Source of the DNA: Cochliopodium minus
Lineage: Eukaryota > Discosea > Himatismenida > Cochliopodiidae
Length of the DNA: 20,262 nt
Direction of reading: 5' to 3'
NCBI GenBank assembly: GCA_024220525.1
Contig: JAMYWO010000123.1
Location: forward strand, 43,984 to 64,245
The notes below the pieces were generated by a model. The model did not search any database, had not been told where the DNA came from, and saw only the letters and a list, made by a program, of their open reading frames with translations. Each line of letters starts with the position of its first letter. The stretch's first letter is position 1. Positions 1 to 20,262 of the stretch are shown here, in pieces. The translations under genes and the position numbers were made by a program.

Positions 1-41
1 TTTTATTTTTATTTTTATTTTTATTTTTATTTTTATTTTTA

Positions 42-70
<29 letters not shown>
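1..70. repeat. T-rich simple repeat, unit T5A, inside an intron
   Basis: About eleven near-perfect TTTTTA units open the window and run into the T-rich 3' end of an intron whose acceptor AG is at 85-86. The matching intron at the right end of the window (20032-20153) is T-rich but not so regular. The tract probably explains why the sequence breaks off here. Confidence 0.9.
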
Positions 71-72
<2 letters not shown>

Positions 73-195
73 TTTTAATTGAATAGGAGAGGGCGTAGAA
101 CAAAATCAGACTATTGCACATGATTACTACCGCAAAGCAGCGGAACAAGGAAATCACTTGGCCTACAACATTCTCGGACACATTTACAATAAAGG
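61..195. repeat. Terminal direct repeat, left copy
   Basis: These 135 bases match 20128-20262 with one substitution (118 A versus 20185 T), which changes GCA to GCT, both alanine. The match covers the last 26 bases of an intron and the first 109 bases of a Sel1 exon. It runs to the very end of the window on the right and decays in simple repeat on the left. Confidence 0.95.
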
Positions 196-946
196 AACTG
201 GAGTCCCTCGTGATCCTGCAAAAGCCATCCGTTATTTCAATTTGGCTATTAAAAATGGAAATACTTCTGCTTATCTTAACTTGGCATATTTATATTTAGA
301 AGGTAAAAGAATTTTTTTTATTTTTTATTTTATTTTCATTTTTTTTTATTTTATTTTAAAATTTTTTTATTTATTGATTTTCATTTTTTATTTTATTTTA
401 TTTTATTTTATTTTATTTTATTTTATTTTATTTTAAATTTTTTTAATTTTTTTATATTTGTTTAGGAAATAATGTTGATAAGGATGTCAATAAAGCTATC
501 GAACTTTATGAAAAAGCTCACCAAAAAGGTGAAATTGATGCTTTGTTCCATCTCGCTAATATCTACGAAAAGGGTAAAAAAATAATTCAGGAAATGTTAT
601 TTTTTAAAATTATTTAGTTGATTTTTAAATTATTATTAAAAAATTATTTTTTAAATTTTTTTTTTTAAAAAAAGGATTAAATGGAACCAAAGATTTCAAA
701 AAAGCATTTGATTATTACAAGAAAGCAGTAGAAGCAGGAAACAAAAAAGCAGAATACAAGTTAGGAAACCTCTACGAGAGAGGCCTTGGTGTTCCTCAAA
801 ATTATGAAAAAGCAATTCAGTATTACCAGTCTGCTGCTAAAAAGGGAGACTCTTTTTCCAAGAGAAGTCTTGAATTTTTGAAGAAAAACCCAAAGACTTC
901 TCAGTATTTTCAAGATGAGAAGAGATCTAGTTTCAGAGACTTTTAA
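87..946 (+). CDS. Sel1-like repeat protein, 3' exons only (5' part outside or at the other end)
   Basis: Three exons are visible: 87-302, 466-573 and 675-946, joined by GT-AG introns in phase 1 that split a glycine codon. The product is a run of about five Sel1-like repeats (pairs of helices with A-x(2)-YY-x(2)-A and G-x-G-V signatures), ending in a charged tail (…SSFRDF) and TAA at 944-946. The first two exons are 216 and 108 nt, exactly two and one 36-residue repeats. Sel1 repeats form solenoids that bind proteins; no enzyme is implied. The preceding exon is not present on the left. The best candidate is the truncated gene at 19033-20262, whose fourth exon is the same sequence. Confidence 0.85.
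386..435. repeat. TTTTA-type simple repeat in an intron
   Basis: About ten tandem TTTTA units occupy the 3' part of the intron at 303-465 of the left Sel1 gene. Comparable T-rich tracts occur in other introns of the window, in the sense orientation of the gene. Confidence 0.85.
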
Positions 947-1551
947 AGGAAACAAGGAATATTTTTTTAAAATAATTCTGAAACAATCAAATTAAAAATT
1001 ATCAATTAATTATTTAACCCCTTTTTATTTTTTGAATATTTTAATTATTTTTTTAAAAATTGAATAATGTTATTTAGTATAATTAATTTATCACAGATAA
1101 CAGGGTGAATAACCTTTATGAGGATGTGATAAATAATAAACAATAGTTTCTAGTGAATATAAATGTATATACATTACAAAGCAGGAGTTTTGGATATTAG
1201 TTTCATGTTTATCAGGAGGCCAGTATCTTTTTTTTTTTTTTTTGATTCAAAATTAATTTTTTATCCTTTTGAAAAAGATTTTATCAATTACATTCTTTTA
1301 TTTAAAGAATGTTCTAAAAATAAAATTTGATTGAAAAAATCATTTATTCAAAGATTTTTCATTACTAAAATTCCAACAAACTTGATAAACTCTTCATNAA
1401 AAAATAAAAAATAAAAAATAAAAAATAAAAAATAAAAAATAAAAAATAAAAAACAAAAAATAAAAAATAAAAAATTATTAAAAAAAAAAATTAAATTATT
1501 GAAAAATAAATAAAAAATAAAAAATAAAAAATTGAAAAATTTAATTTTAAA
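947..1551. other. Gene-poor stretch between the Sel1 gene and the PH exon
   Basis: This is A/T-rich sequence with no confident gene. It contains a 55-codon open frame starting at ATG 1162 that runs through a T16 tract and has no recognisable domain; I do not call it. A single ambiguous base (N) lies at 1397, followed by an A-rich simple repeat. The upstream exons expected for the PH-like gene at 1552 are not evident here. One short frame just before the N (about 1331-1396) has the pattern QRFF, faintly like an early PH strand, but this is weak. Confidence 0.6.
1398..1530. repeat. A5-6T simple repeat next to an ambiguous base
   Basis: Tandem AAAAAT-like units with small variations occupy this stretch directly after the N at 1397. 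It probably forms the intron before the PH exon. Such a tract is prone to collapse or mis-joining in assembly. Confidence 0.85.
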
Positions 1552-1780
1552 AGGTGAAAAATTCAGTTTGTATTTAATCGAAGAAAGATCAAAAATAGTA
1601 GTGAACAATGGCAACATGTCCAAAGAGAACAAACTCTCCATCGAGATGTTGTGTCTTGACCGCGACGTTTCTTATCTCTTGAGTTTCACTTCTTCTCAAT
1701 TCCGTGATGAGTGGTTCGAATATTTATCTTCCGAAAAGAAAAGCGAGTCTTCTTCTCCTGTCAGTTCTGAAAAAAAATAA
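1552..1780 (+). CDS. Terminal exon of a probable PH-domain protein (5' part missing)
   Basis: After the acceptor AG at 1550-1551 the phase-1 frame reads GEKFSLYLIEERSKIVV… and stops with TAA at 1778-1780. The pattern (alternating strands, then L-x-F-x-S…F-R-D-E-W-F-E-Y-L) fits the last strands and the C-terminal helix of a pleckstrin-homology domain, in which one tryptophan is nearly invariant. A serine/lysine tail follows. PH domains usually bind phosphoinositides or proteins at membranes. Codon use is far less A/T-biased than the flanks, so this looks like a real exon. No start or upstream exon was found, so the gene is either truncated, mis-joined at the N at 1397, or a relic. The PH assignment rests on pattern only. 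Confidence 0.55.
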
Positions 1781-1975
1781 TTCCAGATTTCTTTCCTTCT
1801 TTCTTTTTATTTGTTTTTATTTTTGCCTTTTTTTTCATAATCTTGTATAAAAGAAATTTTTTTAGAATTAAAAAAATTTTATTATTTTTAATTTTATTAT
1901 TAATCTTTAAATAAATTCAAGAAAATTGGTAATGGAATCCTGATTGTAAAAAATCTTCCCAATAATTTGTACATT

Positions 1976-3959
1976 TTAAAAAGAGAGGTCAATTATGAGA
2001 TGTTGAATTGGTTTTGGAAATCTGATGTTTGGAAAGTTTTTCAAACACAATAAAAAACAAAAAGTAGTTTGTTTGAATTTTCTTGGAAAAAGAGAGTGAT
2101 CATTTGGAGCCCATTTCTTTTAAAAAAAAAAAATATAAAAAATAAAAAAATTAAATTAAAAAAATTATTCTTTAGTAAATTTACTTCGAGCAATTCATGA
2201 TTTTCTATTAATAAAATTTCTTCATCAAATTCAATTTTATTGATTCCTTCTTTAATTTCCTCATCTCCCAATCCAAGAGCTCCTTTATAATTATCTCCAA
2301 AAGAAAAAAATTCCCCATATTCTTTCATTTAAAAATCAATAAAAAATTAATAAAAATTTAAAAAATAAAATAAAATTTTGAAAATAAAATTAAAATTTTT
2401 TTACTGTTTAAAAACAAAGATCTTGAAGAACAAGCAACAATATAATCAATGTTTTCTAAATTTGTTTTTGTGTACACATCAAAAATGGACTCATCTTCTC
2501 TATTTTGAAAAGTAAGTGGTCCAAGATAAATTTGACCACAACTATAAACTTCTCCAGATTCTTTTTTTTAAAAAAAAATTTTAATAAATTCAAGTGAATA
2601 ATACTAGTTTTTAAAAATAATTTGGTTTAATTTTACCTAATAGAATAAAATTGTGAAAATCTCCACAATGAATTGATGTAATATTAGGAAATGTATCAAT
2701 GGTAGAAATTTGAAAGTGATTATCTTTTTCTTCATTATGAGTTCCCAATCCTAATTGTCCAAATCGGTTGTCACCAAACCCCTTTACAATTGTTTTTCCA
2801 TTTAGATCTCCTTATTTTAAAAATAAAATAAAAATTAATTTAAAAAAATAAAATTAAATTAATTTAAAAAAATAAATTAATATAGATACTTGTTAAAATG
2901 AGAGTATGATGATAACCACAACAAACAGAAATAATATTTTTGTCAGTCATCAAAAGATGTGGTTCTTCTAAAATTTCAACATTCTCCTCAAATCCACATT
3001 CTCCATGTTCATTTGATCCCATCGTCCAAACTTCCCCATTACCTTGTTTGAAAAATATATTTTATTATCATTTTTATGAAAATAAATTTCATCAATAAAA
3101 TTTTAGAATTTAACAATTAAAGTTTTAAAAAAAATAAAAATAAAAAATGAAATTGATCAAATCAAAATCACCTTTCAAGAAAGTGTGGTGATGGAATCCA
3201 CTGGAAAAAGAAACTACATTTTCTAACTTTATTTCTGTGAACCCAAATTTTGGTTGGTAATCAAATAACTCTCCAGTGTAATATATCTTTCCGTCATCTT
3301 TTTGATGAAAAAAAAAAATATTAAAAAAAATATAAAAAAATATAAAAAAATAAAATTTTACTTTTTTGAATTATGGTTGTACGTTCACCAGCACCCACTT
3401 TTATCACGTTGGATGAAATTTTCTTGAATGAAAGGTTTTCCAAACTGGTAATTCCCAACTGTCCCAAATCATTGTTTCCTTTCATTTATTTAATTTGAAT
3501 CAAGTAACAAAATTTTCAAGAATAAAAAATCTTCTTTACCACATCCATATAAATCTCCATTTTCTTGATATTTTAAAATTAAATTAAATTATAAAAAATT
3601 TAAAATTTTTTTTTTTACTCTCCAAATATAAAGAATGGACAGTTCCTAAAAAGATGCTTTTTATGTTTGGATTATTCATTATCTTTTTTGGTCTAAATTC
3701 ATCAACATATGATCCTGTTCCCAATTGTCCATTATTATTATTTCCAAACGAATACACATCTCCATTTGCTTTCAATAAAAGGATATCAATTAAATCAAAG
3801 TAAACAAAATTAATATAAGACTTGATTATTTGGGATATTCGTTTGATTCTCCAATCCATTCGAATTATATGAGAAATTATCAATTAGTGAACAAATTTAT
3901 TTTTTACTGCACATGAAGATACTGAAACAAGATGAAGAATAACTTGATCCTCTTTTCAT
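1976..3959 (-). CDS. RCC1-repeat protein with a W-x-P-x3-H C-terminal tail (copy A)
   Basis: Ten exons, high to low: 3959-3908, 3768-3619, 3563-3540, 3478-3362, 3297-3172, 3042-2890, 2810-2637, 2560-2405, 2321-2185 and 2116-1976. All introns are GT-AG and the sum is 1230 nt (409 aa). The protein starts MKRGSSYSSSCF and carries seven RCC1-type repeats, each opening with a pattern like NGDVYSFG and closing in a hydrophobic strand. Such repeats fold into a seven-bladed propeller, as in RCC1 and related exchange factors and scaffolds. The last exon encodes WAPNDHSLFPRKFK then LLCLKN…FPKPIQHLII, a tail I recall seeing in repeat proteins of amoeboid protists. Introns lie at repeat borders in phase 1. 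Partner unknown. Paralogue of the gene at 4346-6249. Confidence 0.88.
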
Positions 3960-4034
3960 TTTTGTGAGCAATTCTCGATAAGATAAACAGAATAATTTTT
4001 TTATTTATAAATTCTTTTTTTTTAAAAAATCTCT

Positions 4035-4316
4035 TCAAATTTCATTTAAAAATGAGAGTCCAATTATGAGTTGTTGAATTGGTTTTGGAAATCTGATGTT
4101 TGAAAAGTTTTTCAAGCACAACAAAAAACAAAAAGTAATTATTTTACTTTTTAACAAATAAGATTAAAATTAAAAATAATAATAAAATAAAAAAACTAAA
4201 AAAACTAAATTGAAGAATTATTCTACTATAATTTATTGTGAACACAACAAAAAAAAAATTTTTAAATCACATAAAGATGCTGAAACAAGATAAAGAACGT
4301 TTTGATCCCTCTTCAT
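4035..4316 (-). pseudogene. Collapsed RCC1 relic: first and last exons only
   Basis: Between the two RCC1 genes lie remnants of a third. 4316-4267 matches their first exon (ATG, then a shifted frame reading SLSCFSIFM), and about 4140-4035 matches their last exon (FCFLLCLKNF…RFPKPIQQLII, ending TGA). All propeller exons are missing, so this is a deletion remnant of a tandem copy. The last-exon piece is closest to copy A. The first-exon side and flank closely resemble the debris at 6766-6960. Confidence 0.8.
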
Positions 4317-4345
4317 TTTATTTTTTATTAATTAAATTTTTTTAT

Positions 4346-6249
4346 TCAAAATAAAAAACTAATGATTAAATGTTGGATAGGTTTTGGCAATTTGAGTAGA
4401 AAAATATTTTTCAAACACAACAAAAAATATAAAGTATTTTCTTTAAATTTCCTCGGAAATAAAAAATGACAACTTGGACTCCATTTCTGAACAAAAATTG
4501 AATAAAAGAAAAGAAAAATTTAAAAGAAAAATTAAAAAAAAAAAAATTTTTACTTCAATTAGTTCATGGTTTTCAATCAATAATATTTCATCATTGCATT
4601 CAATTTTGGTTGCCTTGATCCGAAAATTTTTGTAACCCGATCCTAGAGAGCCTCCATAACCATTTCCACAAGAAAATAATTCTCCTTTATCTGGTTTTTA
4701 AATTAAAAAAAAGAAATAAACTCTTTACAAAAAAAAAAAATTCAAAAAAGTATTACTATTTAGAAACAAAGACCTTGACGAAGACGCAACAATGTAATTT
4801 ATGTTTTCTATCTTCACTTTGGTGAACTCCGAAACAAATGAGCTTTTAATAAAATCTAAAGAAAGCTCTCCATGACCATTTTCTCCACAACCATACACAT
4901 CTCCATTTTCTAATTAGAATAAAAAAAATTAAAAAAAAAAAATTTACTCATATTTTATTAAATTTTATTTTTTTTTAGTTTAATTTTACTTAATGAAACT
5001 TTTTTTTTATTTTTTATTTTTTTTTCACCTAATAGAAAAAAACTATGAAAATCTCCACAATGAATAGATCTAATGTTAGGCATTGATTTTATTTTTACTA
5101 CTCCAAATTGAAAGGTATCCAACCTTTTCTTTCCGAGACCCAACTGTCCATACCTATTATCACCAAACCCCTTTAAAAGTGTTTCCCCATATTTATCTCC
5201 TTATTTAAATATAAAACATATAAAATAAGATTAAAAAAAAATAATTACGTGTTAAAATGAGAGTATGGTAAATACCACAACAAACAGAAATGATATTTTT
5301 GTCAGTCATCAAAAGACGAGGTTCTTCTACTTTGTCAATTTTTAAATCAAATCCGCATTCTCCCCTTCCATTTGATCCCATAGACCATACTTCTCCATTA
5401 CCTTTTTTTTTTTTTTTGATAAAAAAATAAAAAATAAAACGAATTTAAATAATTTGAATGTTATAAAGTGCTAATAAAAAATGAAAAATAATTGAAAATA
5501 ATTAAAAAATAATTTAAAAAATATTACTTAACAAGAAAATATAATGTTGATATCCAAGGGAAAAAGAAACTACATTATCCAATTTTAATTCTTTAAATCC
5601 TGTATGGGTATGTTTTTCAAATATTCTTCCCGCATAAAAAATCTTCCCATCGTCTTTTTATAAATAATTTAAAAATTAATTTTGAATTATTCAAAAATAA
5701 AATTACTTTTTTTAATGATAGTGAGAAAATTGCTTGTTCCAACATTGGTCACATTAGAAGTTATTTTCTTGAATTCTTGATTTTCATTCTCTTCATTTAT
5801 TAATAGCCCCAACTGTCCCAAAACATTATTTCCTTTCATTCATTATTTTACAAATGAAAAAAAAAGAAGAACAAGAGCAGATCATAATTTACCACACCCA
5901 TACAAATCTCCATTTTCTAATTTTATAATTTTTTTAATTTAATTTTTTAATTTATTATAAATTCTAAATAAAATGAACTATTTGATCCCAAACAAATGCT
6001 CTTTATGTTTTGATTGTTCATTATTTTTTTGGGTAGATATTCATCCTCATTTGATCCTGTTCCCAATTGTCCATTATTATTCATTCCAAAAGCATATACA
6101 TCTCCATTAGCTTAATTGGAATTAATAAATTTTAATCAGATCAGAATAGGATCCATTTATTCACCAATCTATAATTATATATTGAATATATTTTTACCAC
6201 AAACAAAAATACTAGATTTTGATGAAGAATAAGAAGATCCTTTTTTCAT
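4346..6249 (-). CDS. RCC1-repeat protein, tandem paralogue (copy B), possibly impaired splicing
   Basis: Exons: 6249-6198, 6110 to about 5961, 5916-5893, 5832-5707, 5653-5528, 5401-5249, 5199-5029, 4909-4757, 4690-4554 and 4486-4346. Exon number, phases and nearly all lengths equal those of copy A, giving about 410 aa. It starts MKKGSSYSSSKSS, has seven RCC1-type repeats and ends with the tail KWSPSCHFLFPRKFK…LPKPIQHLII and TGA. An AATAAA overlaps the stop. One oddity: after exon 2 the donor GT seen in copy A is absent (sequence TTTATAAT), and read-through meets a stop a few codons on. A possible cryptic donor (A|GTTCAT at 5979/5978) would keep frame with loss of six codons. All other exons are open, so the gene is either recently damaged or spliced differently. 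Confidence 0.8.
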
Positions 6250-6434
6250 TTCAAATTTTAAATAAATCAAATTTTTTTTTTTTATTATTTTTAAAAATAA
6301 AAATGTTAAATAATTTGAAAAAGATTAATCTTTTTGCAACAATCATTTGATAAAAACTTGTTTATTGTTTTTTTAACAACTTTCTTCTAAAAAATTTAAA
6401 TTAATGACAAAAAATTCATCCTTACAGATTTTTG
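6250..6434. other. Upstream region of RCC1 copy B
   Basis: A/T-rich spacer with no open frame of note, presumably the promoter of copy B on its lower side. Its upper edge (6435) is where similarity to 7418 onward begins. Confidence 0.4.
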
Positions 6435-6710
6435 ATTAAAATGTTAATCTATCCTCTTTATTTTGTACGAAAAAAAAAAATGGAAATTTAAAGAATAGTT
6501 GTAATAAAATGAAGAAAAATAATTGGTTTTTCCGTCAAACTCACCAAAATTATCTGGAAAAAAAAACATGTTAAAAATATTATGTAAAACTGTTTCAAAA
6601 TCTTAGTTTTTTTAAAAAATAAACAAAAAAAAAAAAAAAAAATAGGATTGAAAATGAAAATCTTCAAGAACAAAAGATTATTCTCCAAATTGATCAAATT
6701 CAATACAATT
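6435..6710 (+). repeat. Segmental duplication: promoter and leader of the mitochondrial gene, truncated copy
   Basis: This segment matches 7418-7726 closely, with small gaps in homopolymers and one longer insertion in the downstream copy. It carries the putative promoter and the start of the gene at 7670: ATG followed by KIFKNKRLFSKLIKFNTI, after which similarity stops and the frame ends within a few codons at TAA. It is a broken leader with no body attached. Confidence 0.85.
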
Positions 6711-6727
6711 TTATTTAATCTTAATAA

Positions 6728-7409
6728 AAAGTAAATATTTGAATTTTCTTGGAAAAAGAGAAATCGTTTTACTTTTTAACAAAATAAGATTAAAAATAAA
6801 AAATATTAATAAAAAAATAAAAAAATATAAAAACTAAATTGAATAATTCTACTTTAATTTATTGTGAACACAAAAAAAAAAAAAAAATTTAATGCACATA
6901 AAGATGCTGAAACAAGATAAAGAACAGTTTGATCCCTCTTCATTTTATTTTTTATTAATTAAATATTTTTATTCAAAACAAAAAACTAATGATTAAATGT
7001 TGGATAGGTTTTGGCACTTTGAGTAGAAAAATATTTTTCAAACACAACAAAAAAAAAAAAGTATTTTCTTTAAATTTCTAGTACATAAAAAATGACAACT
7101 TGGGCTCCATTTCTGAATAAAAATTTAATATAATAGGAAAAAAATTTAAAAGAAAAACTAAAAAAAAAAATTTTACTTAATTAGTTCATGGTTTTCAATT
7201 AAAAAAAATTCATCATTAAATTCAATTTTGGTTGCCTTGATCCGAAATTTTTTGTAACCCGATCCTAGAGAGCCTCCATAACCATTTCCACAAGAAAATA
7301 ATTCTCCTTTTTCTGGTTTTTAAATGAAAAAAAAGAAAAAACTCTTTACAAAAAAAAAAGATTCAAAAAGTATTATTACCATTTAGAAACAAAGACCTTG
7401 ACGAAGACT
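6728..7409 (-). pseudogene. Mosaic RCC1 relics (first-exon piece plus last two exons of another copy)
   Basis: 6766-7409 closely matches 4140-4786, that is, the first-exon relic plus the 3' end of copy B. On the minus strand, about 7318-7182 encodes the last propeller repeat (KGELFSCGNGYGGSLGSG…) and 7110-6985 the C-terminal tail exon, the latter frameshifted relative to copy B. 6943 down to about 6893 is a first-exon remnant. 6728-6760 is a scrap like 2062-2096 from the last exon of copy A. No propeller body remains. Confidence 0.8.
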
Positions 7410-7417
7410 CAAATTTA

Positions 7418-7726
7418 ATTAAAATGTTAATCTATCCTCGTTATTTTGTACGAAAAAAAAAAATGGAAATTTAAAGAATAGTTGTAAAAACATGAAGAAA
7501 AATAATTGGTTTTTCCATCAAACTCACCAAAATTATCTGGAAAAAAAAACATGTTAAAATTTGGGTATAAATATTTTAAAACCTTAGTTTTTTTCAACAA
7601 AAATTGAAAAAAATTTTTTTTTTCAATTAATGTTGCTTTTAAAAAAAAAAAAAAAAAATAGGATTGAAAATGAAAATCTTCAAGAACAAAAAATTATTCT
7701 CCAAATTGATCAAATTCAATACAATT
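7418..7726 (+). repeat. Segmental duplication: intact promoter/leader copy
   Basis: Partner of 6435-6710. Here the leader continues into a full gene. The long stretch conserved upstream of the ATG (about 7425-7560, containing TTTAAAGAATAGTTGTAA and CTCACCAAAATTATCTGG) marks what was copied and probably includes the promoter. Confidence 0.85.
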
Positions 7727-8915
7727 GCATCTCCCAACATCATCACCATCCAATACAGAAAAACAAGCCTCCCATTAAAATTCACACAAAATAAGCTCTT
7801 TTATTCCACAGAGATAAATAACAATGATAATGCAATCACCAAAGAAAAGGGTATAGCTAAAACAACCTTTTGATTCAAAATATAATATAATCATTCATTC
7901 GATCTATCAACCTATTTAATTCATATTCTAAATAAAATCTTAATCTTAATATAAAGTCACCAATGATAACAATGCGAAATCCACAAATGATAATAAAGGT
8001 AAAAATAAATTTTATTGGATATATCATTCATCTAGATAGAATATAAATCTGATATGATGAAAATCTATCGATAGATTCAATGCAATATCCATTATTTATG
8101 GTTTATATATCCTCTCAAGATGCTCTTCATATTATTTTTTTGACAGAAAATATATTTTCTCAATATAATCTTATGTTGTTTGAATAGAGAATGCAACAAA
8201 CAATCAAGGTATGAAAAAAAAATCAAATATACAAAATTTAGAAATCTAATTTCAATTATTTCTCAATCAGAGATCCTCCTCTATAAATTGGGAGAAGATT
8301 CAAAAAAGAAAATAAACAAAAGTGTCCTCAAACATTTCCTGACATTGCAATTCTTGCCTGCCTTCGTAACTTATTTCGCCTATCTGATCATGGATTTCGA
8401 AGATTTTTTGATGAAGGCTTTTCCGATCGAATTGACAGTTGCTGCATATCTCACTTATAGTTCCATGAGATTCATGAATAGTTATGTTGATACAATAAAG
8501 GTATTCTTTTTTCCACATTTTTCGCTGTTAAAATCAAAAATTAAATAAATTTAAATATATGTTTGTCTAGGTGAAGAGTGTGGAAGATAAAGAGATCATC
8601 TGCCAAATTTATGGAAAAAATCCAAGACCTACTTCTAATTTTAGTTTCATGCAAGAGAACCAAACAAGAAAGATTGCCTATTTGAAAATAAATAACAAAG
8701 AATTGATAATCAGACAAGATTTTATCACTGATCTCGCCAAATTCGAAAAAGTTTTCAACTGTCCTGGTCAGGTAGTGGTTGGAGAATTAGACAAGGCGGT
8801 ATTATTCAAAGTATTATCACAATATAAATCTTCTAAATACCAAAATATGAAACATGAACCATCAACATCCCAAAACAATAACATTAATACTAATAATACC
8901 ACAAAAGAAAATTAA
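7670..8915 (+). CDS. Predicted mitochondrial two-TM membrane protein (TMEM70/186/223-like layout)
   Basis: Five exons: 7670-7850, 7957-7998, 8188-8208, 8271-8500 and 8571-8915; 819 nt, 272 aa. Residues 1-47 are basic and hydroxylated with no acidic residue, ending LFYST, a typical mitochondrial presequence. Residues 48-82 are an Asn-rich linker partly encoded by two microexons (42 and 21 nt, both symmetric, so skippable). A short motif ILLYKLGED precedes two hydrophobic segments at about 104-122 and 127-147, followed by a soluble C-terminal domain (159-250) and an Asn/Thr tail. This layout resembles the TMEM70/TMEM186/TMEM223 group of inner-membrane assembly factors, but I see no diagnostic residue. 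The start is the ATG rather than the TTG six bases before it. It is convergent with the epimerase gene. Confidence 0.75.
8062..8077. repeat. Perfect 16-bp palindrome in an intron
   Basis: AATCTATCGATAGATT lies in the 189-nt intron between the two microexons of the mitochondrial membrane protein gene. It could form a small hairpin or a dimeric binding site; chance is also possible. Confidence 0.6.
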
Positions 8916-9076
8916 AATTGAAATTATAAAGAAAAAAAGATTCAAAAATTTTTTTAAACTTTATCTCATTTGAATAACATTCGGATTATGCAAAGAAAAT
9001 AACAAAAAGATAAAGAATCTAATATAGCAAATTTTTAATCAAAAAAAAAATTTCAAAAAAAGTAAACTTGAAAATT

Positions 9077-10419
9077 TCAAAATTTAGGGAAGAGATTTTG
9101 TTCAACAAAGTAATTCATGATTTCTTCAAAATGTTCTTTCTTGAGAGTAGGATGATCATAAGTGAAACCTTCACCTTCAATAGCAGAACCATCAATGGAA
9201 AGAGCATTATTCTTGATGAGTTCAGGATCAACATAAGGGGAAAGAGGAGTGGAGGTGATTCCTGATTTCTTGCAGAGTTCAGACCAAGGTTTAAGATGTT
9301 TTTCGTTAGCAGTTTCAGCGATAGTTTTCAAACCAACAGCCTTTGCACCAGAGGAGAGCATCTTACCATAGAATCCAGTTTTAATTTTAAACAAATCTTC
9401 GAGAATAGTATTAATTTTTCCTTGATCGGTGTTATTTTTATCTGCGAGATTGAAGATAGATCCAGACTTTGCCTTTGTTGCAGAGAACCACATTGCTTTA
9501 CATACATCCAAGACATGGACAGTATTCATTTGAAGTTCTGCAGTCCAGAGATTCTTTAATTTTTCATCGAGAAATTTATATACAGCACCTACAATAATAC
9601 GAGGAGCAATTCCATATGTATCACCAGGTCCATAAACAACAGCTATTAATGAAGGAAAAAAAAAAGTAAATATCAAATTAATTTAGTAAAAAATAAATTT
9701 ATATTTGAAATTCATATTCTTTCAATATACTTATTAATTTTTTATTACCTGGTCTAAGAATTACATAATCAAGCTTGGTAGTTTTGAGGAGTTCTTCAGC
9801 TTGTTGTTTGTAAGTTGCAAGATTGGTCCATGGTTTAATCTTATCACCTTCTTTTGATGGCTATATTGAAATATAAAAAGGAAAATTAAAAAAATCTTTT
9901 TTATTTGGTGATATATTCAATTATTTATTCACTGTATAAATTATTTATATTTTTAATGATATGTTAAATACATTTTAAAAGGAGGATAATAAATTTTTTT
10001 TTTACTTTGGAACCTGCATCGTATACTTGAGCAGTGGATACTTCAATCCATCTTTTTACTTTAATTTTAATTGCTTCATCAGTACATTTTTTGAGAACAT
10101 CGAGAACCTTCTCTTTATATACTTCTTCAGTTTGTCCATATTTGGTTTCAGCAGCAAGATTGAATACATAATCCCAAGATTCTCCTTCAGTAGCAAAGCA
10201 TTTTTCAATACTTTGTGGACTGCAAAGATTTGCTTGTTTGGTTGTTACTCTGCTATCTGCGAATGCCTTTTTGTGTGCTTCACTGAAGAATGCCAAACTT
10301 GTTGGGAGTTTATCCAAAACTCTAATTTCTGATGCCAAATCTTTATCAACAAGATATTTAACCAAATTTCTTCCAATAAATCCTACCCCTCCAAGAACTA
10401 ATACTTTTGGTTTACTCAT
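9077..10419 (-). CDS. Extended SDR (NAD-dependent epimerase/dehydratase family), atypical active site
   Basis: Three exons: 10419-10006, 9860-9749 and 9642-9077; 1092 nt, 363 aa. The N-terminus MSKPKVLVLGGVGFIGRN has the Rossmann G-x-x-G-x-x-G motif. NLAAETKYGQ and the strand IEVSTAQVYD (catalytic-type Ser/Thr) follow, then ATYKQQAEELL and YVILRPAVVYGPGD, all in the order of extended SDRs such as sugar-nucleotide epimerases and 3-beta-HSD-like enzymes. The usual Y-x3-K is not met: aligning the Lys four before the conserved Glu puts Leu, not Tyr, at the catalytic position. There is no signal peptide or TM, so it is probably cytosolic. Substrate unknown. The gene is convergent with the one at 7670-8915, with a gap of 161 bp. 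Confidence 0.85.
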
Positions 10420-11144
10420 CCTACGAAATTAAAAATTTAAATTTATAAAAATAATTATTTTTTTTATTATTATTAATTGGTGATATTTGATTTTAAAAAA
10501 ATTTAGGGATATGTAAATTTTACATTTTCAATTCATTTTTTTTTGTAATAAAAAATGTAAATAATTTTAATAATGTTTCGTATTCTAAAAGATATAGGTG
10601 AAATAAAGTATTTTTTTTTGTAAGATTTTATATTTTACCTTTTATTAAAAATAAATTTATTTGATTTTTTTTTTTATTTATAATTTTTTTATTAATTTTT
10701 TTATATTTTTTTATTGTAATCAAATTTTTTTTTTTTAAAAAAGGGATCAAATATCAGTATGATGGATGGGAAATCGATCAACATTTTGCTTGTATTTCTT
10801 AATTTTTATTATTCTCAATAAAAAAATAAAAAAAAAAAAATATATCAGTATCAATTTTATTTTCTTAAAGATGATCTCATATTCATGCATTCAAATCAAT
10901 AATCTAATGTGGAAATATATAATCTGATATTTCCATTTTTGCTTGTTAGATAAAAAATAGGGAATTGAAAAATATGAAATTGATCAATGAATAACCAAAT
11001 TTTTCGAGTTGATCTTTCAACATGAGTGAATTAAAATTTATCTATAACCAAGATTCTACGAATTGGACTGTGATAAAACAAAAATAGATTTTATTCAAAG
11101 AATAGAACATTCAAATAGGCCATTTAGATTATTTTAAAAATGAA
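10420..11144. other. 725-bp spacer upstream of the SDR gene
   Basis: No coding exon seen on either strand. It is A/T-rich with long T tracts (10611-10735), one A tract and a slightly less biased part (10741-11100). It should contain the SDR promoter and the acyltransferase 3' end. A perfect 8-bp inverted repeat with an 8-nt loop is at 10911-10934. Confidence 0.5.
10911..10934. repeat. Small inverted repeat (8-bp arms)
   Basis: Arms GGAAATAT and ATATTTCC flank an 8-nt loop, about 210 bases past the stop of the acyltransferase gene. No function can be assigned. Confidence 0.4.
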
Positions 11145-13858
11145 TCAAAAAATCTCCTCCAAACCTTTGATGATGTTGTAGGGATCATCGATCTGACGAA
11201 CATGATAAATTCTGCGCTTGTATTTGAAGATGCTATTGTTGGAAGAAAGATCCTCCTTCTCATCAATGAGATCCTCCTGAGAGATAACACGATCCTTCCA
11301 AAACTCTTCACCCATCTTAGGACCTAACTCCTCAATAGTTTCTCTCACCTCTTTCTTCAAATTTTTTCTAATTTCTTTAATCTCTCTGCAAATTAGAGGA
11401 AAGTCTTTTTTGAGAAGGCGCTTGGCTAAGGGTAAGGTCGAATTCCACACGTTGAACTCTTCTTCCATAATTTTGATGCTAGCGTAGGAGCAGAGCGGGA
11501 GGAAGAGGGCAAACAGAATCGCAATTTTCCAGCCGAAAACGATCATGCAAATCAAAGTGTACAACACCATGAACAAAGGTATCAAAACTTTTTGAAAGCA
11601 AAAAAAAAAATAGTAAAGAATAGCAAAGAAAATTTATTTAATACTCAAAAATTTGGGGTAAATATTAAAACTTTTAAAAGTTGAAAGGTTTTAAAATGAT
11701 TTACCCAAACCTGTCATGACCTTATAACTTGCAATCACATCATTTCCTCTGATTTTTACTGAAGAGTTTTGGAGGGATATCTTTGCCTTTTTTTGTGCAA
11801 AAGGTCTTGCGATGGCGGCAATAGGAAACAAGAGGATGTTTCCTATCGTAATAAATGTAAATCAAGAGAAATATTAAAAAATTTTAAATGTGAAAAAAAA
11901 AATATTCAAAAAATTTTACCTGGAAAAGAAATTATCAGTAAAAAAAGAAAATACAACATCCTTGGCACTATGAGCCAGACTGAAGTGTCATTCAAAGTTT
12001 TGACTTGGTTGTCGTTGAGACCGTACTTTTTCAAGTGTTGTCCGTACGTGGAAACTTTTTGAGCCATTTCTTTGACTTTTGGGAGTTCTTGCATTTGGAT
12101 AAATCCTTTAATCAACCTTTGTTGCAATCTCAAAAACTCTTCTGCAGGTAAACTAAAAAAAAAATGAGTTGTTGTTTAATGAAATTGTTATTTAATTAAA
12201 ATCTTAATTAAAAAATGAAAATTTTTTTTTCAAATCGTTGTTAAATGAGTTGTTGTATATGAAATTAAAATTTTTTTTACAAAATGAAAATTTTTTTTGA
12301 AAAAATTAAAAATAGTTTAAAAAAATTTTAAAAATATTACTTTTTGTTTTCTGGTTGGTATAATTTTCTTGTAAGTTGCGCGATTTGCATGACTTTGTAG
12401 TCAGGATAATTGACGATGACGTTTAACAGTCCTTCTTCAATCAAAGCCAATAATTTCCCGCACGCTTCTCTTTTGTTGCTTTGGTAGAGTGAAACGAGTT
12501 CTTGGGGTATCACTATAGGACTTCCAAATTGAACTAAGACATGACTAAAAAAAATTATTTTTTTATTTTAATAATTTTTTATTTTTATACTATTTTTTTT
12601 ATTATTTATTTTTATTATTTACCTTCTGAATCTATGACCTTGAAAGTAATTTAAACCACATGGAACAATTGTTATTTTGCATTTTGGATCTTTGTTCATT
12701 GCACCAAGAGCCATGAGAGTTACTCCTGCCTTGAGTGGTAATAAATGGGGTCTGTCATGTGACCCACCTTTTAATTCGAAAATAAAAAATATTTAAATAA
12801 AATTTAAATAAAAATTGAAAATTTACCTTCTGGAAAAATTCCAATGCTATTTTTAATTTTAACAAAAGAAATATTGGATATATGGGATTTAAAATAGTTT
12901 TTTCTTTACTTCTTTTTTTCACAAAGTCTTTCCCATACTGTTTTGTAAACTTCTGTATGGTCAATGTGTGGATAAATCTTTTTTTTTTTTTGTTAATTAA
13001 AACTGAATTAATGTAAAATTAAAACTTAATACCTTAAACTTTGTTTTTTTTGTTATTGGGTTATCAAAAGGGGTTTTCACTTTGATTTGTGTATCAGATA
13101 TGATTTCCAACACAGTAGGAGTTTCAGAAGATCCATCAATAAAAATCGACTCGTTTACTTTAACTTGACTTAGGAACTGAGTTTCTTCTCCTGTTATAAT
13201 TCCGTCTTCATAACTCACTATCATTCCGATTCCTTTTAACAAATTATTTAAAAAACATTAATTTTTGTAGAAATAAAAAGAACCTCTTTTAGCGTAGTCT
13301 TGTGGTCTTGACACTGGTATTGCTCTCTTTAAAGGTTTTTTTTGTTTTAAAATTTCCATTTTTAATTTATTTCTCTTATAATTACCATTATCTGTTTTAT
13401 GAATTGAAATTAAAATTTTAATTCAAATTTCTTAATATTAATTTATTTTTACTTTTGCAAAATCTCCAACAAGCGACATATCGTATGATTTCTTTGCTAC
13501 TATGAATCCAACAGGAATATCTAAAGAAGCTGTCAATAATGTTGGATCCTAAATGAAAGAAAAAAATATATGGGAAGAATATAATGGGATATGAGGTGTT
13601 TATTAAGAAAAGTGATTAATATTATTAGTTTTGAGTATAAATATATTTTGAAATCCTCTTTTTCGAAATTTTCTTATCATATTCTTTTTTTGAAAGCAAA
13701 TTTACCAAAAATTGGTTTTGATGATTTCCCACGAATATTATTGGTCCTTCTTTTGGGATATTTTCTTTTCCCATCACTTCAACCCCAGAAAAAAATATCT
13801 TCACTACCAATTTCAAAAGATATTTGCATAACAAGGAAAGTATGGAATGTATTTTCAT
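11145..13858 (-). CDS. Glycerol-3-phosphate / DHAP acyltransferase, fungal Gpt2/Sct1 type
   Basis: Eleven exons, high to low: 13858-13706, 13548-13453, 13326-13284, 13232-13033, 12977-12910, 12846-12827, 12767-12623, 12544-12341, 12152-11920, 11842-11705 and 11587-11145; 1743 nt, 580 aa. It catalyses the first acylation step of phosphatidate synthesis. PlsC motifs are clear: [10 protein letters not shown] (residues 44-53) has the H-x5-D spacing of the Gpt2/Sct1 family instead of H-x4-[21 protein letters not shown] (188-199); then [15 protein letters not shown] and IVPCGLNYF (227-235). C-terminal hydrophobic segments ([34 protein letters not shown] and the next stretch) imply a membrane protein, probably in the ER. 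A 20-nt microexon encodes most of the FPEG motif. It is shorter than the yeast proteins (about 740 aa). The start is divergent from the ankyrin-like gene at 13941. Confidence 0.93.
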
Positions 13859-13940
13859 TTTTTTTAAATTTTTTTTTCACACTTGGACCATCTTTAAAAT
13901 AATTTCAAAGCAAAATAAAAAATATTGTTTGAAACCACAG
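13859..13940. promoter_or_regulatory. 82-bp divergent promoter region
   Basis: The start codons of the acyltransferase (minus, 13858) and the ankyrin-like gene (plus, 13941) are only 82 bases apart, so both promoters must share this A/T-rich spacer or overlap the 5' ends of the genes. No specific box is recognised. Confidence 0.6.
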
Positions 13941-14933
13941 ATGAAAAAATTGTTAAAAATAAAAGCTCCAAACAAATCATATCTCAAATATAGATTTGAT
14001 ATCAAATCATTGAAGAAAATAACAACATTTCATCTTACTAATAATTCGAATATCTTTCTCACAAAATTAAAATACCATTTTGATCAACAACAAAATGAAA
14101 CGATTGAAATCAATCAAATAGTAATACCTGAAAATATATTCAAACTTTTGCGTAATATAGACTTTATAGGAGATGTATTGGAAGAATATGAATTAAAATT
14201 ATCTGATGTGATTATAGATTCATTGAAAAAAGAATATGGGGATATGATATTCAAGATATTAGATCAATACCCAGATAAATTGTTATTTGTGCTTGAAACA
14301 GCGATGATGCACAAAAAGGAAAGAATAAGCAATCAAATTATAAAGAGATATCATTATGATTTGATCTCATCTATGGATGTTCTTTTGGAATTAGCAATAG
14401 AGAATAGATTGTCCCAAACTACCAAATTATTGTTAGAAAATGATTTCAAAGAAGAATTGATTGATGAATCTCTGAATAAGCTGGCAGAAAGAAAAGATGA
14501 AGAGATGTTTAAATTGATCTTATCTTCAAGAAACCCCGATTTGAATGAAAAATTGTTGGTTTCAGTGAAAAAAGAAAATTATCTTTTCGCCAAATTGATC
14601 ATCGATAATGGCGCCAACAATCTCAATGAAGCATTGAACACTGCATGTCAATTTGGATACAAAGATATGATCACCATGCTTTTGATCAGAGGTGCAAATA
14701 ATTTAGAAGAAGCATTTGAATGTTGCTACAAATATAATCATTATGATTGTTTGCCCATTTTCGTTCAACATGGCGTCAAAAAGTTTGTTGTCGATTCTCT
14801 CGTTGAAAAATCTATCGTAAGCAAAAATGTTCCTCTGTTTCGAGTCCTGTGGGGTTTTAGATCAAAGTCTCGTGATAAAAGATATCAATTGGTTGCTCAG
14901 AAATATCGTTTTGATTTAGATGTTTATTTGTGA
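13941..14933 (+). CDS. Ankyrin-like repeat protein (single exon)
   Basis: An intronless 330-aa frame from ATG 13941. The frame is open further upstream, but that would overlap the divergent acyltransferase start and is homopolymer-rich, so I choose the ATG at 13941. Residues 1-47 are strongly basic (MKKLLKIKAPNKSYLKYRF…), compatible with a mitochondrial presequence but without the YSS-type end seen in neighbours. From about 85 to 290 there are degenerate helical repeats, clearest as AKLIIDNGANNLNEAL and TMLLIRGANNLEEAF, an ankyrin-like pattern in which NNLNEAL replaces the usual TPLH. Such repeats mediate protein binding. The following gene encodes a related protein with the same GA-x-N/D-x-x-EA pattern, so the two are tandem paralogues. 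Confidence 0.75.
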   Translation: MKKLLKIKAPNKSYLKYRFDIKSLKKITTFHLTNNSNIFLTKLKYHFDQQQNETIEINQIVIPENIFKLLRNIDFIGDVLEEYELKLSDVIIDSLKKEYGDMIFKILDQYPDKLLFVLETAMMHKKERISNQIIKRYHYDLISSMDVLLELAIENRLSQTTKLLLENDFKEELIDESLNKLAERKDEEMFKLILSSRNPDLNEKLLVSVKKENYLFAKLIIDNGANNLNEALNTACQFGYKDMITMLLIRGANNLEEAFECCYKYNHYDCLPIFVQHGVKKFVVDSLVEKSIVSKNVPLFRVLWGFRSKSRDKRYQLVAQKYRFDLDVYL

Positions 14934-15007
14934 TGGAACGATTATTATTGTGAAATAAAAAATTAAAAAGATTATTTATAAAAAAAATAAAAAATTAAAA
15001 AAAAAAA

Positions 15008-16099
15008 ATGAAATGTTTAACTAAGAAGATACCCAAATATTCTTTAATCAGAAATTATCAATCTAATATCTCGTTCATTAAATATAATAATATTTCTTTA
15101 TTGAGAAAGATCAATCATTTGAAAATTTATACCGTTGAATATAATTATTGTAGAACATATTCCTCCTTCAATAATCAAAATATGTTTGACAAAGATGCTA
15201 ATTTTGATGATGAAGGAGGATATATAGATGAAAATGAAATATTTGAGATGATAAAGAAAGAGAGGAATACAGATATGGAATTATTCTTAAAGAGAAAAGA
15301 TATAGAGATCAATTTTTTGAATAAAATGTAATTATATCTTCTTTTTAATAACATATTTATTCAAATAGATTTTCTCTTTGATATTAATTAGTTTTGAAAA
15401 TATTACTTACATTTGTGAAAATAGGCTTGAAGTATCTACATTAGAAGGAAAAGGTCATATTGTTGAATTATTAGTTGAAAAAGGTAAAACCAAAAAATCA
15501 GTAAATATTTTTATAGTTTAAACAATCTATTAGGAGCATCAAACCTTAACTCAGCATTATCATTAGCAGCACAATATCATTACAAAAAAATTGTAAATTT
15601 TTTGTTAACAAAGGGAGCAGATTTGGAGGCATCTCTTCAAGAACAAGCTAAGAATGGTAACCAAGAAATGGTGGCCGGTCTAATCAAATTTGGAGCCTCT
15701 GATTTTAATGAAGCACTCATAAAAGCATGTGAATCAGGCGCGTTTGCTACTGCTAAAATTTTGATAAGTAACGGTGCTGATAACTTGGATGAAGCTTTTA
15801 AATTAACTTTGAAAAAATCTTATTTTAAATTATCTGCTTTATTAGCAATGAATGGTGTGACAGGTAAAAATAACACTTTTTTTTTAATTTAAATTTTTTT
15901 TTTTTTATTATTTAATTGTCAAGGTTCTCTTGTTGAAAAAGCACTTTTGATCGCTTATAGGAATAACAATAGAGAGTGTCTTAATCACTTGTTAAAACAT
16001 TGTAGGAACTTTTCCAAACTAAAGGAAGAAGCTGTGAAGAAGAGTGATCTCACTTTGCTGACCAAAATTAAAAATATTGAGAATAATCCAAATAATTAA
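15008..16099 (+). CDS. Ankyrin-like repeat protein with a mitochondrial-type presequence
   Basis: Four exons: 15008-15327, 15425-15483, 15534-15863 and 15924-16099; 885 nt, 294 aa. The start is preceded by an A tract (AAAAAAAATG), as in several genes here. Residues 1-53 are rich in K, R, S, N and Y, with a single acidic residue, and end CRTYSSF, a good fit to a cleaved mitochondrial presequence. An acidic linker (DANFDDEGGYIDENE) follows. Ankyrin-like repeats then run to the end: VELLVEKGASNLNSAL, NFLLTKGADLEASL, AGLIKFGASDFNEAL, KILISNGADNLDEAF, ALLAMNGVTGSLVEKAL. It is related to the gene at 13941. Its stop is only 12 bases from the next start codon. Confidence 0.82.
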
Positions 16100-16111
16100 A
16101 AATAAAAAAAA
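16100..16111 (+). promoter_or_regulatory. 12-bp intergenic gap containing AATAAA
   Basis: Between TAA (16097-16099) and ATG (16112-16114) lie only A and one T, including AATAAA at 16101-16106. If that hexamer is the poly(A) signal of the ankyrin-like gene, cleavage would fall inside the coding start of the Sel1 gene, and the Sel1 promoter would lie inside the upstream gene. Confidence 0.55.
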
Positions 16112-18816
16112 ATGAAGGGCATTTTTAAAAGAATCAATTATTCCAAGATCATTCCTTTCAATTGTACAAATAAATTTCGATTTCATAATCTCAAATTTGA
16201 ACATAAAAAATTGAATCTCTTGAAATATACTTTTTTGAGAACCAATTTCAAATCTTATTCCTCCAATATCATTCCAAATGATAATACATCCAATATAGAT
16301 TTGGTTGAACAAGGAATAATGTATGAAAAAGGTGATGGTGTAAAACAATCTTATGAACGTGCTTTGGAGAATTATAGTTTGGCTGCAGAAAGAGGTGATG
16401 CATTAGGATATTTCAGAATGGCCAAATTATACGAAAGGGGACAGTAAAAAAAATAATTTTGATTCATAAAAAATATCATAGATAGATAAAGGATATATAA
16501 AGATAAGTGATCACATGGGAATATTTTTATTACTTATAAAGGAAATATAACAATATTTCAATCAAAATTTGTTAATTAAAATTTGTGTGATTGATAATAT
16601 TAATCAACATATCAAACGATAATATGATAATTTACATTCAATGATCAATTATAAAGTATCTGTTGAGATATAAAAATTGATTCAAATTATTGGCTTGGAT
16701 TAAATTCAAAATCAAATAATTTACATTTTATGATCATTTATAATTCTTTTTTTTTTACTTTTTGATCTTTGATCAGAATATAGATGACATCTTTTCTTAT
16801 TAAAATAATCATTCTTTGAAAAAAAAAAAAAAACCAATAATCTTTTTAACAAAGTGGAACACCAAAAGACATAAATAAAGCATTAGAATTCTACCAAAGA
16901 GCTTCAGACCTAGGATTCCACGGAGCCTTAGATTACATAGCATCACTATACAGATGGGGATTGGTGATACCCGATGACAAAGAAGCAAACTACAAAATTT
17001 CTTTGGAATACTACCAAAAATCATCTAAATATGGCAGCGGAGAAGCCTTTTTTTATATGGGAAACATGTATGAGCATGGGAGAGGTGTTGAGAAAAATAT
17101 GGACAAGTGTGTTCGTTATTACACGGAATCTGCAAAGTTGAATTATCCCAAAGCTTTATATTCCATGGGTCATTTCTATGAAAACGGTGTTGGTAACAAA
17201 ACAATATATTTCTTTAGAAAAAATTAATTTCAATTTTAAAAAAAAATGTTTTAAATTAAGTATTTTATTTTATTTAAAAATAGAAAAATAACAATTTTTT
17301 TTGGATGAAGAAACACAAAATATCTTAAAAATTTACTAATTTATTAAATATTTAAAATTAAATATGTTTATATTATTTAACAAAATAAATTATTTAAAAA
17401 CAATTAGTTTTATCCATTTATTTTTTAAATATTTGTTTTATAGAAGTAGTGAAGGATGTTGAAAAAGCAATTGAATATTATCAAAGAGCGGCTGAAGGTG
17501 GAGTAGGAGGCGCTTGTTTTCGTCTTTCCATGTTGATTCGTGCGAAGGAAATTGATTATTTATTAAAAGCTATCAAATGTGGTCATGACAAAGCAATGAA
17601 AAGGCTTGGAGATCTTTATTTTAAAGGTATAAAAAAAAAAAATTTATTCTTATTTAAAAATTAAGGAAAATATTTTGATACTTTAAAAATAAATTTAAAA
17701 ATAAAAATATAATTTTAAATATAATTTAAAAATAAATAAAAAATCCATTAAATAATGTTAAAGATGAAATTGAATAAATAAAAATAAATATAACACAAAA
17801 ATAAATAAAAACTAAATAAAAAAATAAATAATAAATAATAAAATAATAAATAATAATATTTTTGCATTAAAAGGAGAGGGAGTTTCCCAAAACTACATTG
17901 AAGCAATTAAATATTATGAAATGGCTGCTGAACACAAAAACATCTATGCGCTCCAGTCACTTGCTTTCATTTACTTCAAGGGGATTCATGTCAAGAAGGA
18001 TTTGGTAAAGTCTTTCGAATACAACAGGAGAAGTGCTCTTATGGACAATGATGCTAGTATGTATTTATTGGGAACTTGTTACGAAAGTGGTAATTATTTA
18101 AGAAAATAAATTTAATTTTTTATTTAATTTTTTTAATTTATTTATTTTATTTTACTAATTTCTTTATTTGTTTTTTATCATGTTCAGGGTTTGGAGTTAA
18201 GACAGACCTCAAAAAAGCTTATGAGTGGTATGAAAAAGCAGCTAGTTTAGGAAATAAAGACGCTTTGTTTACTCTTGGATTTTTTAATTGGAGTGGTAAA
18301 GAGACTTTTTTTTAAAAAAAATAATTTTTTTTTTTTGATTTGTTGATTTCTTGATTTATACGAACTTTTCTTATTATTTCTTCATTCAATATTTTTTTTA
18401 TTTAATTTTTTTGTTTAATATTAATTATTAAAAATTTTTTAATTTTTTTAAAAAAAGGAAAATCAGTAGCTAAAGATGAAGCGAGAGCTTTTGAAATCTT
18501 CAAAAAGCTAGCAGATGAGGACCAAAACGTGAGGGCCATGCAAATCGTCGGCACCTTCTACAGAAGAGGTATCACTGTTCCCGTCAACTACCAGCTCTCC
18601 TTTCAATACTTTGATAAGGCGGCAACTTTTGGAGATCCAAAGTCTATTGAGAACCTCGCTTATTTTTATCTTGATGGAAAGTATGTCAAGAAAGATTTGA
18701 CAAAGTCTTTGATGTATTTTGAGAAGGCTTTTGAGCTTGGCATTACTGGTGCTGAGAAGATGATTTCTTTTGTCAAGAAGAAGTTGAAGGAGAACAAAGC
18801 TGTTTTTGATCTTTAA
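16112..18816 (+). CDS. Sel1-like repeat protein with a mitochondrial-type presequence
   Basis: Six exons: 16112-16443, 16855-17192, 17444-17626, 17874-18089, 18188-18295 and 18458-18816; 1536 nt, 511 aa. Residues 1-51 are basic with a single acidic residue and end NFKSYSSN, a likely mitochondrial presequence. About eleven Sel1-like repeats follow (for example EGVSQNYIEAIKYYEMAAEH, FGVKTDLKKAYEWYEKAASL), closing with a Lys-rich helix and …AVFDL. Exons 3-5 are 183, 216 and 108 nt, all phase 1 to phase 1; exons 4 and 5 hold exactly two and one repeats. Two AATAAA hexamers follow the stop (18821 and 18835). Solenoids of this kind act as adaptors; the partner is unknown. It is paralogous to the Sel1 gene pieces at both window ends, with the same 216-108 exon pattern. 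Confidence 0.9.
16627..16654. repeat. Imperfect direct repeat in the longest intron, copy 1
   Basis: About 28 bases (ATAATTTACATTCAATGATC…) recur at 16716-16743 with a few changes. Both lie in the 411-nt first intron of the Sel1 gene, which is longer and less homopolymeric than the other introns and contains no open frame of note. Confidence 0.6.
16716..16743. repeat. Imperfect direct repeat in the longest intron, copy 2
   Basis: Second copy (ATAATTTACATTTTATGATC…) of the repeat at 16627-16654. It could mark an old insertion or a local duplication; no function assigned. Confidence 0.6.
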
Positions 18817-19032
18817 AGACAATAAAAAAATAAGAATAAAATTAATTTAATTATTTTATTTTTTAATTATTTATTAATTTTTTTTATTTTTAATTATTAT
18901 AAATTTATTTTTGAATAAATTTTCTCATAAAATCAAACATATATGTGAAGAAAAACTTCAAATATTGTATTTGGTTGACAAAAAGATATATCAAACATTT
19001 TTTGTAACAAAGATAATTGAAATAAAAAAAAA

Positions 19033-20262
19033 ATGAAAATATTTTTTAGAAATCGCAAATCCTTTTTTTCTAAAACCAACAATGCCATCAAATGCCATCC
19101 ATCTTATTATTTCCAAGATCAAATAAATATCCCATCCACCATATTCTCCACCCACAACAATAAAATCACCCATCCCATCATATATCGCCATTCATATCAT
19201 ACAACATCGATAAATACATCAGATAAAAAACCAACAGAACATAAAGAAGAGGGAGAAGCCATATTTTATAAAGGAAAAGAATTGGAAACCAAAGGAAACA
19301 ATAAAATGGCCTTTGAAGCCTATAAGGAAGCAGCTGATAAGGGATATACCAAAGCATGGAGATATGTGGCCTTCATGTATGAGAATGGTAAAGGTATTGA
19401 GAAAAATCTGACATCTGCTTTGAAATATTATGAATTGGCTGCATCCAAAGATGATTATATTTCTCAATATTATTGTGGTCATTTTTATAACGTAAAAAAA
19501 AACTTTATTTAATTTATAATTTATAAAAAAAATAATAAAAAAAAACTTGATCACATTTTTCTTGTTTAAAATTTATTCTTACTGTTAGTTTGGAAAAAGT
19601 GTTCCAAAGAATATTAAAAAAGCTATCGAATACTTCACAACTTCTTCTGAAGGAGGTTATGCTCCTTCCTCCTTAATGTAAAAAAATTTTTTTTTTTCAA
19701 AAATAAAATTAACGAACATTTTTGGTTGAATAATTTAGAAATTTTTCTTTTCATTTTATTTTTGTTTTAAATTAATTACTTCATTTAAAAAGGTTGGGTA
19801 AAATATACGAAGCAGGAGAAGGAATACCTAAAGATCTAGGAAAAGCATACCACTACTTCCAACTTGCCGCCTCCGAAAAAAACAGAGTGGGGATGCACAA
19901 AGTTGCTATTTTCCTCCAACACGGGAAACATGTTCAAAAAGATATTGAGAAAGCTCTTCGTTTTTTCAAAATGGCTTCTGATGAAGGAAATGAACATTCT
20001 TCTTATGCTATTGCTAACATTTATAGTGCTGGTAATATTTTTTATTTTGTCAACATTTTTTATTTGTGGATTTTTTATTTTTGTGTTAATTTTTTGAGTT
20101 TATTTTTATTTATTTTTATTTATTTTATTTTATTTTATTTTTTAATTGAATAGGAGAGGGCGTAGAACAAAATCAGACTATTGCTCATGATTACTACCGC
20201 AAAGCAGCGGAACAAGGAAATCACTTGGCCTACAACATTCTCGGACACATTTACAATAAAGG
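19033..20262 (+). CDS. Sel1-like repeat protein with a mitochondrial-type presequence, 5' part (runs off the window)
   Basis: Exons: 19033-19491, 19589-19677, 19793-20031 and 20154 to the end. The A-tract start context repeats that of the two genes upstream. Residues 1-60 are basic (MKIFFRNRKSFFSKTNN…YRHSYHTTS) and look like a mitochondrial presequence. A charged linker follows, then Sel1-like repeats from about residue 72 (EGEAIFYKGKELETKG…, AGEGIPKDLGKAYHYFQLAA, HGKHVQKDIEKALRFFKMAS). The fourth exon is cut after 109 bases and is identical, but for one synonymous base, to the first 109 bases of the 216-nt exon at 87-302. Joined to the left-end exons, the lengths 459+89+239+216+108+272 give 1383 nt, an exact 460-aa frame. 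Confidence 0.88.
20128..20262. repeat. Terminal direct repeat, right copy
   Basis: Partner of 61-195. The copies are offset by 20,067 bases. Upstream of 20128 the intron sequence differs from that at 1-60, where both are simple T-rich repeat. Confidence 0.95.

Follow-up and report, generated by a model that had tools for sequence, protein, structure and literature searches.

Matching ends of a 20-kb window from Cochliopodium minus: a probable contig end with two sequence versions weighed against a circle or a tandem unit

Does a stretch of DNA whose two ends carry nearly the same sequence represent a circle, one unit of a tandem array, or a place where an assembly came to an end? This question is raised by 20,262 nt of the Cochliopodium minus assembly GCA_024220525.1 (contig JAMYWO010000123.1, positions 43,984 to 64,245), hereafter the window, which a sequence-only reading had headlined as a circle or the unit of a 20-kb tandem duplication. 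Our analysis indicates that a plain assembly or haplotype effect fits the end match at least as well as a circle or a tandem unit. The ends most likely agree because the assembler stopped at the point where two near-identical versions of one gene merged, and on its own their agreement does not speak for circular DNA.

The matching ends and the split Sel1 gene

The window, a stretch of eukaryotic nuclear DNA in which introns are short, is AT-rich (mostly 19-33% GC per kb) and carries two Sel1-repeat genes, ankyrin-repeat genes, a gene of the NAD-dependent epimerase type and, on the minus strand, RCC1-repeat segments. When the window was compared with itself, 134 of 135 positions were identical between its last 135 bases and a stretch near its left end, at an offset of 20,067 (Table 1). 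The sole mismatch, A118 against T20185, lies in the third position of the codon at 116-118 and exchanges GCA for GCT, both encoding Ala; the recurrence with one synonymous A/T change, as described in the sequence-only reading, is thus correct. Within the exon part of the overlap 108 of 109 bases are identical. The simple repeats immediately left of position 61 differ between both copies, and the match can be traced over 135 bases at most, as the window ends there.

The overlap falls into a Sel1-repeat gene that is split between the ends (Sel1 gene 2). Joined across them, its exons add up to 1383 nt (459, 89, 239, 216, 108 and 272 nt), which is 461 codons including the stop, with no internal stop, and the earlier claim that the gene closes in frame holds. 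The exon pair of 216 and 108 nt recurs in the same phases in the intact Sel1 gene that begins at 16112 (Sel1 gene 1; exons of 332, 338, 183, 216, 108 and 359 nt), as had also been observed before.

Chance or a distant paralogy behind the end match could be ruled out, the next-best ungapped placement of the last 135 bases, over the whole window and both strands, reaching 76 of 135 positions. The same holds for distant paralogy to Sel1 gene 1, whose exons share 113 of 220, 59 of 109 and 175 of 364 aligned columns with those of gene 2. The two proteins are about 28% identical, and paralogy that old does not explain the end match.

Table 1. Positions of the features that bear on the end match, in window coordinates.
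Feature	Position	Strand	Details
Period-6 simple repeat TTTTAT	1..75	+	12.7 copies, 75 bp; left end breaks off here
Left copy of shared stretch	61..195	+	Spans the intron 3/exon 4 border of Sel1 gene 2, including the first 109 exon bases; A at 118
Sel1 gene 2 (or second copy), 3′ part	87..946	+	Exons 87-302, 466-573, 675-946; Sel1 repeats E 1.8e-19, 2.5e-18
77-mer, putative k=77 graph vertex	119..195	+	Begins one base after the A/T difference; identical to 20186-20262
N	1398		No other N in the window; contigs 1-1397 and 1399-20262 probably joined here by scaffolding
Period-7 simple repeat AAAAAAT	1399..1532	+	19 copies, 134 bp; directly right of the N
Exon with C-terminal half of PH-like domain	1554..1777	+	Right of the N; PF00169 positions 50-103 of 105, E 0.0021, 19.0 bits
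Sel1 gene 1, intact, comparison gene	16112..18816	+	Six exons, 512 codons with stop
Sel1 gene 2, 5′ part	19033..20262	+	Exons 19033-19491, 19589-19677, 19793-20031, exon 4 starting at 20154; Sel1 repeats E 5.3e-16
Right copy of shared stretch	20128..20262	+	T at 20185; window stops there
Same 77-mer, right contig end	20186..20262	+	Exact run of 77

An exact run of 77 bases and a single N

Between the A/T mismatch and the window's end the two copies match without a break for exactly 77 nt, the longest exact repeat in the window. In a de Bruijn graph with k=77, sequences that differ at one base first share a vertex at the 77-mer one base on, and a contig that stops at such a shared vertex ends exactly 77 bases beyond the difference. 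This is the arrangement found at the right end, with a run of 77 and the variant base immediately ahead of it, and it was reproduced in a toy graph. Upstream of A118/T20185 just 57 identical bases precede the divergence of the simple repeats; since this is less than k, both branches remain separate in the graph. A mismatch followed by an exact run of 77, with only 57 matching bases upstream, indicates that two versions of the sequence exist. According to a passage in PMC12611240, the default k values of SPAdes for 150-bp reads are 21, 33, 55 and 77, of which 77 is the largest. Another default set, 21, 33 and 55, is quoted in a passage of PMC8240309, and the k lists of metaSPAdes and MEGAHIT given in PMC12387558 also include 77, which is therefore not exclusive to SPAdes.

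The toy graph, built with k=77, modelled two alleles, a uniform circle, a uniform two-copy tandem and a two-version tandem. With two alleles each branch ended in the 77 bases with which the downstream unitig begins, with the variant base right before them. In the uniform circle the overlap was exact, 77 bases long and placed right at the start, with no mismatch ahead of the 77, and the uniform two-copy tandem gave a unit without such a self-overlap; for the two-version tandem, which was followed by unitig lengths only, the same ending as with alleles would be expected. The right end of the window is like that of a circular de Bruijn contig with an exact k overlap in that its exact run of 77 matches a standard k. 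It is unlike such a contig in that a mismatch and a further 57 identical bases stand before the run, and the copy that it matches starts 118 bases inside the left end and not at base 1. A uniform circle should have exact ends in a single version, whereas the overlap contains one substitution and differing simple repeats. The end of the window is very probably the end of a contig, and it is well supported that the identity of the ends is a graph-end signature with two versions, which does not demonstrate a circle. The preference of the sequence-only reading for two real copies or haplotypes over one closed molecule agrees with the two versions and with the different behaviour of the toy circle; its headline of a circle or 20-kb tandem unit is not established, and it overlooked both the exact 77-base run, a mark of an assembly-graph end, and the N at 1398, on which the ring depends.

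The window is not continuous: that N directly abuts the 134-bp AAAAAAT array, and the window is probably a scaffold of the two contigs listed in Table 1. SSPACE or gap fillers may leave a single n in a scaffold. A ring, whether as a circle or as a tandem unit, needs two links, the overlap of the right end with the left contig and the join at the N; one false link is enough to make the locus linear.

Clues on whether the N join is right came from the PH-like exon to its right, which matches the domain with a score below the curated cut-off of 25.1 bits. If the join is correct, the first half of the PH domain is expected between the Sel1 stop at 946 and this exon. None of nine single frames taken from the two strands of 947-1510 gave a Pfam match (10 pieces were searched, the exon itself giving the one PH match). 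Among 12 GT sites in 947-1397, the sole long open frame in the required phase has 49 codons (1163-1310), and fusing its peptide to the PH-like exon raised the score from 19.0 to 25.1 bits. Control fusions gave 20.4 bits for the candidate minus its FFFFF, 18.5 for a hand-scrambled decoy and 19.1 for another frame. Compared with 29 decoys (15 shuffles and 14 low-GC open frames) the candidate had the best E-value, 3.8e-5, and one of the 29 also passed 2e-4.

Other properties of the candidate exon point in both directions. Its donor reads GTTCTA, compared with a GTA start in 10 modelled Sel1 introns, the donors of which were chosen by the GTA motif and are hence not independent; its GC content is 0.216, the lowest value of a Sel1 exon being 0.295; and its codon score is -0.12, compared with 0.09 to 1.62 in 166 overlapping first-exon windows that were also the score's training set. 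Four noncoding stretches of the same length and free of stops had scores from -1.79 to -1.68, which counts in favour of the candidate. An alternative 22-codon frame and the first half of the candidate look more exon-like; the first 22 codons of the candidate have a GC content of 0.324 over 1163-1230 and a codon score of 0.71. They lie in a short exon-like patch left of the N at 1140-1222, which is followed by a donor-like GTATCT at 1223. Taken together, these results point both ways, with a slight pull towards the join being right. The reading in which a beheaded PH gene proves the join false is weakened by the score that the candidate reaches.

Other genes and duplications in the window

Several further duplications are seen in the window. 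RCC1-repeat segments occupy 2150-7320 on the minus strand in at least two, and probably three, adjoining gene copies, the third of which looks truncated; here RCC1 reached or exceeded the curated cut-off in three of the six frames tested, with weaker matches in two and none in one. Stretches 4246-4451 and 6873-7078 are 94% alike, and 4527-4747 and 7149-7369 are 86% alike. A local duplication about 1 kb apart (6431-6710 and 7414-7726) is 85-99% alike, reaching 99% between 6625-6710 and 7641-7726. It ends at the apparent ORF start (MKIFKNK...) of the gene from 7643 onwards, and the copy near position 6.6 kb therefore has the look of a fragment from the 5′ part of that gene. Two ankyrin-repeat ORFs, 13725-14930 and 15488-15892, adjoin each other (Ank_2 E 2.4e-06 and 7.6e-10) and appear to be a tandem pair, like the Sel1 genes.

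By eye, the genes at 16112, 19033, 15009 and 7670, which include both Sel1 genes and an ankyrin gene, have basic, hydroxylated N-termini that resemble mitochondrial presequences. The multi-exon gene at 11148-12760 (minus strand), which by its appearance we take to resemble a membrane-bound glycerol-phosphate acyltransferase, gave no Pfam match for its exon 11148-11633. Searches of collections that are not meant for eukaryotes, and therefore of little weight here, returned no matches to an exact 37-base probe from the 77-mer (viral_contigs and genome_contigs), five pattern matches to an ankyrin ORF in viral_contigs, none of them confirmed, and no match between 1-6000 and phages. PDB searches yielded no useful relative except ankyrins, and there were no Rfam matches at gathering scores and no tRNA.

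Possible origins of the end match

The window displays near-identity of its ends, an exact run of 77, two versions, a single N on a simple repeat and in-frame closure of a gene. The explanation that we favour, to which we give about an even chance, is that one linear Sel1 gene is displayed twice, as two alleles, and that the N join is unreliable. A de Bruijn-graph assembler with k=77, perhaps SPAdes or a similar one, may have traced the locus up to the Sel1 exon. There two versions of the exon, which differ at 118/20185 and in the preceding intron's simple repeat, would have converged on one 77-mer, and the contig would have ended. The short left contig, 1-1397, would hold the other version and would have been joined to 1399-20262 over one N at a simple repeat. 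Both versions would most likely be alleles of one Sel1 gene that has an ordinary, linear place in the nuclear genome. The true order would be the long contig and then the short one, with the N join either wrong or hiding sequence.

One synonymous change in 135 bases, next to a Sel1 gene 1 that is only about 28% alike in protein, fits alleles. Passages in PMC9516828 name heterozygous alleles as the main source of false duplications and count a gap that separates the two duplicates within a scaffold among their traits. In the window, too, a gap, the N at 1398, sits between 61-195 and 20128-20262, the two copies, on the same scaffold. The locus is like the heterotype false duplication of that source, two alleles assembled as two places, in its near-identical copies on one scaffold, its allele-like difference and the gap between. 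The class is defined by read depth and k-mers, with half depth and single-copy k-mers expected in both copies; the locus is unlike it in that 135 bases are all that is visible in both copies, and in that these sit at the two outer ends of the scaffold. Against alleles it can be said that the 1397-1399 join presumably rested on read evidence of a scaffolder or gap filler, and that, if the right end and the left contig were neighbours, read pairs should have connected them as well. Moreover, the PH score reached with the 1163-1310 peptide speaks weakly for the N join, the figure of 77 may be a coincidence and does not single out SPAdes, and the other recent-looking duplications make a recent Sel1 duplicate credible.

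Such a duplicate, with the N join right, is the next explanation: two near-identical Sel1 copies about 20 kb apart would stem from a recent duplication of a gene or modest segment, and the assembler would have broken at the repeat. We consider this unlikely, though worth taking seriously. The recent-looking local duplications keep the duplication readings alive, and a recent duplicate is favoured by the near-identical pairs of 94% and 99% described above, by the tandem pairs in which both the Sel1 and the ankyrin genes occur, and by the weak PH signal across the N. It would, however, require a copy far younger than the split between Sel1 genes 1 and 2, and the match is visible over 135 bases only, with simple repeats that already differ upstream. 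The window is like tandem gene-family clusters in having neighbouring paralogues of all three kinds, Sel1, ankyrin and RCC1-repeat; it is unlike them in that those paralogues differ clearly over most of their length, whereas the end copies differ at one base in 135.

That part of the earlier headline which proposed a tandem unit survives as a distinctly improbable reading, in which units of about 20,067 bp form a real tandem array of two or more copies, one junction carrying A and another T. The end overlap and the join at the N would in that case both be genuine, with the gene closing in frame across the ends, and two unit versions would be expected to give the same graph signature; yet the array depends on the N join, at which the PH exon lacks a secure first half. 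That the DNA is a closed circle of 20 kb, be it plasmid-like or extrachromosomal, is hardly credible: such a molecule would account for the end overlap and the in-frame closure, but a uniform circle would begin with an exact overlap of length k, in one version where two are found, the content is spliced, nuclear-looking housekeeping genes, and the ring would pass through the N, so that a homogeneous circle is disfavoured. What probability these four explanations leave over is assigned to other causes.

Where the ends of a draft eukaryotic contig overlap, one should ask how long the exact run at the end is (here 77, a standard k), whether a mismatch precedes it and whether the ring has a gap elsewhere, before concluding on a circle or a tandem unit. 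It is improbable, in our judgement, that these 20,067 bp truly form a repeat unit, either a tandem array or a circle in at least two versions, with spliced nuclear-type Sel1, ankyrin and RCC1-repeat genes and a junction inside a functional, correctly spliced Sel1 gene. If the 20-kb unit is real, it would represent a recent segmental duplication with its breakpoint in a gene that was kept intact, which would be within known biology.
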